Part shown: positions 7,174 through 58,934 of the stretch, piece by piece
Layout: every line of letters begins with the position of its first letter
How positions within the stretch are numbered: position 1 is the stretch's first letter
NCBI GenBank assembly: GCA_018262985.1
Contig: JADFDI010000001.1
Span: 389,027-453,026, forward strand
Source: Spirochaetota bacterium
GTDB lineage: Bacteria > Spirochaetota > Spirochaetia > Treponematales > UBA12059
DNA: 64,000 bases
Direction of reading: 5' to 3'
The notes under the pieces: generated by a model
Databases searched by the model: none
Seen by the model: only the letters and a program-made list of their open reading frames with translations
What the model was told of the DNA's origin: nothing
Translations under genes and position numbers: made by a program

Positions 7174-7218
7174 CGAAAATCGAAAAGCCGGCGAAGGGCG
7201 TTATCAAGGCCTGCCAGG

Positions 7219-7285
7219 GCGGGGCCTGACACGGAATAGCACACCCCACTCGCTGACGCTCGGGGGCGCGCCATTCCGTGTCACC
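7219..7285 (-). repeat. Inverted, shorter copy of the structured hairpin repeat
   Basis: TGACACGGAAT (7227-7237) and ATTCCGTGTCA (7273-7283) are perfect 11-bp arms. Read on the minus strand the interior is GGGTG...CCCGAGCG-tc-AGCGAG...CAGG, the same tip and end sequences as the elements at 7710, 20549 and 37741, but with an entirely different stem. Confidence 0.55.
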
Positions 7286-7324
7286 CGCCGTCCTGCTTGG
7301 TTCCGACGGCGCTGCGCCGGGTTT

Positions 7325-7601
7325 GCGCTTTCACGCCGGCCGACGTGGCGGGCGGGTTCGGAAGGCGGCGGTTCGGCGGGGGCTCGGGAGATCGACGAAG
7401 CCTTCGGTAAATCGCCGAAGCCGCTTTGCGGCTTCGGCGCCGCGACCGCGACAGCGGTCGCGCGCTTTCACGCTGGCCGACGTGGCGGGCGGGTTCGGAA
7501 GGCGGCGGTTCCGCGGGGGGCGCGGGAGATCGACGAAGCCTTCGGCAAATCGACGAAGCCGCTTTGCGGCTTCGTCGCCGCGACCGCGAAATGCGGTCGC
7601 G
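7325..7601. repeat. Two tandem 137-bp units, each with two hairpins
   Basis: Unit 1 spans 7325-7461 and unit 2 spans 7462-7601. Each holds a stem of CGNCGAAGCCGC-TTT-GCGGCTTCGNCG (7413-7439 and 7551-7577) and a second stem of CGCGACCGC/GCGGTCGCG (7441-7462 and 7579-7601). The N positions change from C:G in unit 1 to A:T in unit 2, so pairing is kept. No open frame here looks coding. Confidence 0.7.
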
Positions 7602-7612
7602 CGCGCCCGGAA

Positions 7613-7746
7613 GGCTGACCCGTCGCGCCTTTGGAAGCTGTGGATGGCGGCGTCGTGGAGAAGAATAACACGCCCGATAGGCCGACCCGTCGCGCGTGCG
7701 ACGCGCCGCGCATGGAAAGCGGCGTGATGGAGTAACGATACGGCGC
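7613..7746. repeat. Two diverged 67-bp direct repeats overlapping the outer box of the next element
   Basis: Copies begin GGCTGACCCGTCGCGC (7613) and GGCCGACCCGTCGCGC (7680). Both contain a GCGGCGT...TGGAGNA segment near position 40 of the unit, which is the left outer box of the structured element at 7710. The 3' halves have diverged. Confidence 0.5.
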
Positions 7747-7877
7747 ACGTTGTACCGGTGTGGGTAGCGCGGGGGGTGGCGACGCGCGACGCGCCCCCGA
7801 GCGCTAGCGAGGGGGTGCGTAGTGCGTCGACAGGACCCCCGCTATCCGGTTCGCGAACGGCCTGCGCCGATTTCCAT
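7710..7877 (+). repeat. Structured intergenic repeat, copy A (about 168 bp)
   Basis: The left outer box is CATGGAAAGCGGCGTG (7711-7726) and the right outer box is the near-complement GCCGATTTCCATG (7865-7877). Between them GGTGGCG (7775) and CGACAGGACCC (7828-7838) bracket a stem-loop whose tip is CGAGCG-ct-AGCGAG (7798-7811). The whole element can fold as one long hairpin. Related copies lie at 20549-20680 and 37741-37911. Its right end runs into the 3' end of the pseudouridine synthase gene region. No coding capacity is seen. Confidence 0.65.
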
Positions 7878-7892
7878 GACTCGCGGGTGGCG

Positions 7893-20548: not shown

Positions 20549-20680
20549 GGGAAGGCGGCGTGATGGAATTGCGATGCGGCCCGCCGATCCGCGGAGCGTC
20601 CGGAACCGCGGGTGGCGGCGAAAAACGGACTTCCGAGCGAAGCGAGGAAGCCTGTTCTTTCGCCGCCAGGACCCGTTCCA
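20549..20680 (+). repeat. Structured intergenic repeat, copy B (right end not recognised)
   Basis: The left box GGAAGGCGGCGTGATGG is followed 56 bp on by GGTGGCGGCGAAA (20611), a stem, the tip CGAGCG-a-AGCGAG (20634-20646), the complementary arm TTTCGCCGCC and CAGGACCC (20667-20674). The right outer box seen in copies A and C is not evident. The remainder of the 420-bp gap downstream of potD (20402-20548, 20681-20738) shows a GTC/GTCGTC run at about 20472 and nothing else. Confidence 0.6.
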
Positions 20681-20738
20681 AGTGGCTCGGCGATTCGGAA
20701 CTACGCCGTGCTATCCCTTGGGGTCCCTTTCTCCCCGC

Positions 20739-37324: not shown

Positions 37325-37546
37325 GCATGGTATGGGGACGAATGGCACGGGCTTCGTCCCCCGCTCGCTTCGACCTTCACGGAAGGCCCGCCGTCCCCTT
37401 CGCGCCGCCTCCAATCCCCGCAGGCGCTCCCCGCAGTCCGCCCCTCGAATGCGCATCACACAAAGGCACAAAGGCACGAAGGGGCATGTTGCCGTAGGCA
37501 GTCACACCCTACATTGGTGCCTTTGTGTCTTTGTGCCTTGGCGTGA
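37325..37546. repeat. Composite intergenic repeat, copy 2
   Basis: GGGGACGAATGGCACGGGCT (37333 on) and GCTCGCTTCGACCTTCA match the copy at 15397, and a long inverted repeat follows with arms at 37456-37482 and 37516-37546 built from GGCACAAA-like units. Together with copy C of the structured hairpin repeat it fills most of the 676-bp gap 37311-37986. Confidence 0.7.
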
Positions 37547-37740: not shown

Positions 37741-37911
37741 CCATGAAAAGCGGCGTGCAAGGCCCCCGACCCGGCGACTGCCCCGCGGGGCCGGGTGGCG
37801 CGGGGGGTGGCGCGGAAAAACGCGCACCCGAAGCGCAGCGGAGGGCGTGCGTATTTCCGCGACAGGACCCCCGCTTACCGGTCTTGAAAAGGCCTCCGCC
37901 GCTTTCCATGG
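37741..37911 (+). repeat. Structured intergenic repeat, copy C (171 bp)
   Basis: The left box CCATGAAAAGCGGCGTG (37741-37757) is complemented by GCCGCTTTCCATGG (37898-37911). Inside, GGTGGC (37806) opens a stem CGCGGAAA..ACGC..CCC that pairs across the tip CGAAGCGCAGCGGAG with GGGCGTGCGTATTTCCGCG, then GACAGGACCC. The stem sequence differs from copies A and B but pairing is kept. The remainder of the gap (37547-37740, 37912-37986) holds nothing I recognise. Confidence 0.65.
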
Positions 37912-58409: not shown

Positions 58410-58934
58410 ATGCGTGAACCAAGGAACGTTAAAACCGGGATCCTGCACCTCGTCACGTGCCGGGTCGTGAACGACGAGCGGCTCCTCGCGCCGCCCGAGG
58501 CCAAGGATCTCTTCGTCGAGGACCTGGGTCGGCTCCGGGAGAAATACGGGGGCCTCGTCGTCGATTTTTCCGTGCTGGACGACCACGTCCACCTGCTCTT
58601 CGAGCCGAGGGGGAGCGCCGACCTGGCCGTCAACATGCGGTGGCTTTTCGGCGTCTTCGCCATGCGCTACAACCGGCGCTACGGTTCGTCGGGACACCTC
58701 TGGGGCCGGCGCTACGACTCGCGTCCGATCCGCGGCGGCGCCGAGCTTCTCGAGGCCATCGAACGAATCGACGACAACGCCGTGCGAGCGGGCCTCGCGG
58801 AGCGTCCCGAGGATTGGGAATGGAGCGGCCTCGGTCAGCGCCGCCGGGGCGACGCGAGCGCGATAGGCGAGCCGCCCCCCTGGCTCGGCCTGATCGCGAG
58901 CGCGCACCGGGCCCGCGCGCCTATTTCTTCCTGA
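58410..58934 (+). CDS. REP-associated-type (RAYT) Y1 transposase
   Basis: The product has 174 residues. LDDHVHLLFEPRG carries the HUH metal motif (HVH), and MRWLFGVFAMRYNRRYGSSGHLWGRRYDSRPI is the conserved IS200-like/RAYT block with the likely catalytic Tyr. The C-terminus (ELLEAIERIDDNAVRAGLAERPEDWEWSGLG) is typical of RAYTs. No terminal inverted repeats or second insertion-sequence gene flank it, so it is probably a domesticated single-copy transposase, of the kind that spreads REP hairpins. It overlaps the convergent S1-domain gene by 14 bp. Confidence 0.85.
   Translation: MREPRNVKTGILHLVTCRVVNDERLLAPPEAKDLFVEDLGRLREKYGGLVVDFSVLDDHVHLLFEPRGSADLAVNMRWLFGVFAMRYNRRYGSSGHLWGRRYDSRPIRGGAELLEAIERIDDNAVRAGLAERPEDWEWSGLGQRRRGDASAIGEPPPWLGLIASAHRARAPISS

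Follow-up and report, generated by a model that had tools for sequence, protein, structure and literature searches.

Here we describe REP/BIME-like repeats, best read as a new family in which the internal loop is fixed and the hairpins are exchangeable, from a 64-kb stretch of spirochaete DNA (hereafter “the window”, i.e., the whole stretch analysed). These repeats are probably non-coding, non-autonomous, intergenic palindromic DNA elements working like REP/BIME or MITE-type repeats, whose hairpins are re-perfected or exchanged. The host is a little-known spirochaete with ~40 such hairpins scattered through its genome, in which the stem is free to change against a constant shape and a handful of constant letters. 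Compensatory stem change is commonly read as proof of a selected RNA structure; here many copies occupy comparable fixed sites and the stem is often replaced whole, so that exchange, template switching and selection could be measured separately. It is also a repeat found family-wide whose internal loop is fixed, and it offers a good natural test of the evolution of paired stems.

Four copies lie in the window. Three of them (A, B and C, all on the + strand) had been listed in the initial annotation, and reading the sequence recovered each with the boxes described there. A search with R1, a covariance model based on 14 home-genus copies, added a fourth, copy D, on the − strand and adjoining A, which was absent from that annotation. 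The features are as follows.

~7183-7345 (−), ends approximate: copy D, whole element, 5' to 5' with copy A
7213-7294 (−): copy D, hairpin core, 92 bits with R1
7346-7710: spacer between D and A, holding truncated 5' units of the element and another hairpin repeat
7711-7878 (+): copy A, whole element, 88 bits with R1, RNA fold z = -5.6
7766-7846 (+): copy A, hairpin core, with GGGTGGCG at 7774-7781 and CAGGACCC at 7831-7838
20549-20710 (+): copy B, whole element, 70.5 bits with R1, outer stem imperfect
20602-20682 (+): copy B, hairpin core, tip CCGAGCGAAGCGAGG
37742-37911 (+): copy C, whole element, outer stem CATGAAAAGCGGCG / CGCCGCTTTCCATG, 79 bits, RNA fold z = -4.2
37797-37878 (+): copy C, hairpin core

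Copy A runs in the order outer stem (CATGGAAAGCGGCG / CGCCGATTTCCATG), 5' module, hairpin and 3' module. An inverted outer box had been claimed for A and C only, and this holds, the version in B being imperfect (CTACGCCGTG). The second hairpin repeat between D and A (GCGACCGC..GCGGTCGCGGCGACGAAGCCG..CGGCTTCGTCGAT, at ~7360-7610 of the window) is also found upstream of many copies elsewhere, and is often inserted among the truncated units of the element.

Broadly, the element is a non-coding, intergenic sequence of ~165-190 nt whose several nested stems make up an imperfect rod. The outermost part is an outer stem, GCGGCG/CGCCGC, lengthened by paired bases specific to each site; in the home genus the 5' junction is conserved (AAACCCGGCG), and the 5' module includes conserved, unpaired-looking letters (GTGATAGNGCAAACCCGGCGCAGCGCC). 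Inward of this module come a middle stem and then a short GC stem ending in GGGT/ACCC, followed by an asymmetric internal loop with G on its 5' side and AGG on its 3' side (GGGTG against CAGGNCC). Beyond this loop stand P4, a variable stem of 20-25 bp in which G.T or A.C wobbles are frequent at positions 12-16, and a small tip; many tips in the home genus are closed by G.A-type letters in tandem together with a GNNA or GNA loop. Across a consensus of 45 cores from several genera, the only fixed letters are those of the internal loop (GGGTG-N-C ... G-N-CAGG-N-CC). The ends of the element differ from genus to genus, and the copies of one carrier genome (G006) have inverted ends of 16 bp (CACGACGCGCCGCCCC / GGGGCGGCGCGTCGTG) and stop sharply on the 3' side.

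The variable but paired stem noted at the outset is borne out, with pairing far above chance in comparison with shuffles. Among the 14 home-genus copies, 90% of cells are paired (74% in shuffles), both sides have changed in 61 cells (17 in shuffles), two-sided changes occur in 19 pairs, and covariation reaches 0.473, against 0.176 for shuffles and at most 0.122 for slid controls. The 45 cores of several genera likewise have 90% of their cells paired, with a covariation of 0.627 (0.156 when shuffled), figures that lean towards structure as the alignment was fitted to R1, a lean bounded by the slid controls. DNA folding of the four window cores gave z-scores of -4.5, -4.7, -3.3 and -5.1, better than every shuffle, and RNA folding gave those listed above for copies A and C. 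The initial annotation had proposed weighing covariation against shared ancestry: pairing does exceed that of shuffles, though shuffles control shared ancestry incompletely and processes at the DNA level can also yield compensated changes.

The same annotation had suggested a covariance-model search of the genome and its relatives, and held that a lack of further copies would count against the repeat. Many further copies were found, family-wide: the genome of origin (G000; 3.44 Mb, 22 contigs) holds ~41 copies with R1, and 40 at E <= 1e-5 with a second model (R2) built from the 45 cores, and two sister species hold ~34-40 copies each. By R2, counts were 40 in G000, 37 in G001, 32 in G002, 22 in G006 and 19 in G004, with fewer in other carriers; overall, 13 of the family's 23 genomes are carriers, each with 1-40 copies. 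R2 matched 4 of 296 genomes in a sample of the phylum, where matches outside the family (G034, G031) were weaker and serve as leads only. A strict pattern matched 2 of 84,980 species genomes, which are the sister MAGs JAFGNN01 and JAKLEE01. This pattern had 0 matches in IMG/VR and copy A had no match in phage records, so that a phage origin was rejected. Literature searches returned nothing specific on these repeats.

When sites are compared between genomes, whole hairpins are apparently exchanged between fixed sites. Most G000 copies have a syntenic counterpart in G001 as judged by the 3' flank, orthology being assessed from one flank only and G001 and G002 being fragmented MAGs. Over their whole length, elements at these sites are between 60% and >90% identical; across 28 ortholog pairs, the identity of the P4 hairpin spans 0.59-1.00 (19 of the 28 at <=0.79), even though most 3' flanks have an identity of 0.8-0.96. 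The closest hairpin is, in about half of the ortholog pairs, that of a non-orthologous copy in the other genome. An 88-nt tract over the hairpin core is identical between G000:C17:111998 and G001:C18:40260, two non-orthologous sites with different surroundings, and the true ortholog of the latter (G000:C6:39088) bears a different hairpin; this is the trace that a hairpin transferred between sites would be expected to leave. An apparent swap at C1:77837 could also be explained by a neighbouring copy. The site of copy B holds a different hairpin sequence in the two sister species and hence offers no clean empty site, and its comparison with these species revealed no target-site duplication. Elsewhere in G000, two copies separated by 2.8 kb (C11:602877 and 605655) are almost the same, sharing their identity from the 5' box to ~45 nt beyond the 3' end, into the flank.

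Replacement of whole hairpins at syntenic sites means that pairing can be kept without site-by-site compensation. The initial annotation had taken conserved ends and a free but paired stem as suggesting selection on the fold, and this stands in part: what points to recognition of shape is that the internal loop is invariant, and the stem paired, from genus to genus. That a stem varies and yet pairs is in itself insufficient as proof of a selected RNA fold, because pairing also survives hairpin exchange and template switching; the latter can make multi-base compensatory changes, and create and maintain hairpins (PMC8794818).

A possible but unlikely alternative is that a structured non-coding RNA, or an mRNA 3'-end element, would be transcribed at each site and its fold selected, with true compensatory substitution varying the stems and recombination spreading the copies. 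The strong covariation and the fixed internal-loop letters across genera are consistent with such an RNA, as is the position of many copies very near gene ends. G.U outnumbers A.C mismatches 128:30 in the home genus, which would indicate that it is the plus strand that folds; however, this bias is concentrated at stem positions 12-15, and the other genomes have no excess (22:31). Rfam 15 gave 0 matches at gathering and no family on the elements at E <= 1, so that a known RNA was rejected, even at a relaxed threshold. The downstream neighbour is on the opposite strand in 50 cases and on the same strand in 26 (by rough composition-based gene calling), so that no single transcriptional context emerges, and the wholesale replacement of hairpins at conserved sites also argues against an RNA. 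On balance, these sequence comparisons appear to favour a DNA repeat.

Truncated units around the copies hint at how such a DNA repeat may change. Free 5' modules on the same strand occur 24 times upstream of full copies and once downstream, and a search for free 3' modules found almost none. The upstream flank of a free module had a median score of 22 against the full copy of its own site and 9 against those of other sites, which identifies the free 5' modules as local tandem duplications. The breaks of several truncated units fall at GGCGG/GGGTG, i.e., the base of the hairpin, which suggests slippage. At four G006 loci (L064, L155, L156 and L195), arrays of ~60-bp units (CACGACGCGCCGCCCCG...) lie upstream of copies and include an inserted segment containing ACAGGATNAACANGATAAG.

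It is thus tempting to speculate, from these sequence patterns, that the hairpin extrudes as single-stranded DNA at replication forks, where the polymerase would stall and slip back, leaving truncated tandem units. The hairpin would then be replaced or re-perfected, either by template switching or by repair that uses other copies (ectopic gene conversion), and its stem would drift and yet stay paired. The fixed internal loop would be the likely recognition feature for a putative factor that spread the copies. A more austere version, in which the repeats are neutral debris without function or recognition and pairing is kept solely by replication template switching (quasipalindrome correction), seems improbable to us. 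It draws on the reported capacity of template switching to form hairpins and to compensate several bases at once (PMC8794818), and the tandem units stopping at the hairpin base may suggest polymerase trouble; but it leaves unexplained a GGGTG/CAGGNCC loop fixed across otherwise different sequences in several genera, as well as the head-to-head pairing of copies and their dispersal to ~40 sites.

This pairing is uniform: in the match lists, all of the ~13 close pairs (<700 bp) are (−)(+) and 5'-to-5', some of them being orthologous to one another and thus not independent. Examples include 396239/396792, 97819/98315 and 598101/598419 in G000, and similar pairs occur in G006 (C63) and G004 (C43). 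REP families are mostly head-to-head dimers (PMC3733652), a trait which the element shares, the D/A pair included. Likewise, the REP/BIME/REPIN repeats (GTAG- and CGTC-tagged families; PMC3733652, PMC3116915) are short, dispersed intergenic palindromes with variable stems and mosaic units, as here. Yet REP palindromes measure 20-40 bp (PMC3733652), against ~165-190 nt with nested stems, and they bear an unpaired GTAG/CGTC tag, a tetranucleotide foot at the 5' side, whereas the fixed letters of our element form an internal loop.

By analogy with REPs, Y1 (RAYT) transposases could move the copies in trans, by recognising a folded single strand. Head-to-head pairing and intergenic sites fit this (PMC3733652), and G000 has six Y1 transposase matches, two of them ~0.5 and ~1.6 kb from a copy; one match lies inside the window (58494-58730 (+), PF01797, E 2.2e-7, 32 bits). 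RAYT-associated REPs and REPINs, however, have a linked or co-occurring Y1, and G004 and G006 carry ~20 copies each with no Y1 match, the reverse being true of G009 and G010 (Y1 genes present, 0 copies). Moreover, the motif repeated in front of the G000 Y1 genes is a different one, GGGACAGAGCT (at L125, L126 and L128), likely a short repeat belonging to these genes. We therefore rejected Y1/RAYT as the driver, given the two copy-rich genomes that lack it, and regard such mobilisation as quite unlikely. The initial suggestion of a MITE/REPIN-like mobile hairpin accordingly survives as a dispersed, structured MITE/REP-like repeat found family-wide, and not as REPIN membership through association with Y1. 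CGTC repeats are also known without a dedicated transposase (PMC3733652).

Searches for other drivers gave a similar picture. Reverse transcriptase (PF00078) was found in none of G000, G001, G002 and G006, all of which carry copies, and a host reverse transcriptase was therefore rejected as the driver; with Y1 also missing from copy-rich genomes, no mobilising enzyme was found. No gene family recurs beside the copies, which argues against a cargo gene or cassette of their own, and element orientation had no relation to GC skew, so that a replication-strand effect is not supported.

It also seems doubtful that a dedicated recombination system that recognises structure would dock at these fixed sites, swapping whole hairpins as cassettes without gene cargo and using the GGGTG/CAGGNCC loop as its mark, much as integron integrases act on folded attC. 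The likeness to attC is one of working only (a recognition-type palindrome, asymmetric in a fixed feature and free in its terminal stem), and unlike attC the element consensus lacks the RYYYAAC / GTTRRRY core boxes (R'/R''), carries no cassettes and does not stand in same-strand gene arrays.

The REP/BIME-like DNA repeat that we favour also resembles MITEs in being non-coding and dispersed, and in its terminal inverted repeats (the outer stem of A and C, the 16-bp ends in G006, and an imperfect form in B), with neither a target-site duplication nor a transposase with matching ends found for it. Structured dispersed repeats of the bcr1 type, from unrelated organisms, are roughly 150-200 nt long, multi-copy, intergenic and folded, and are like the element by description only. 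A separate inverted repeat, of the CACAAAGGCACGAAGG type, lies at ~37331-37428 of the window and has copies in both sister genomes.
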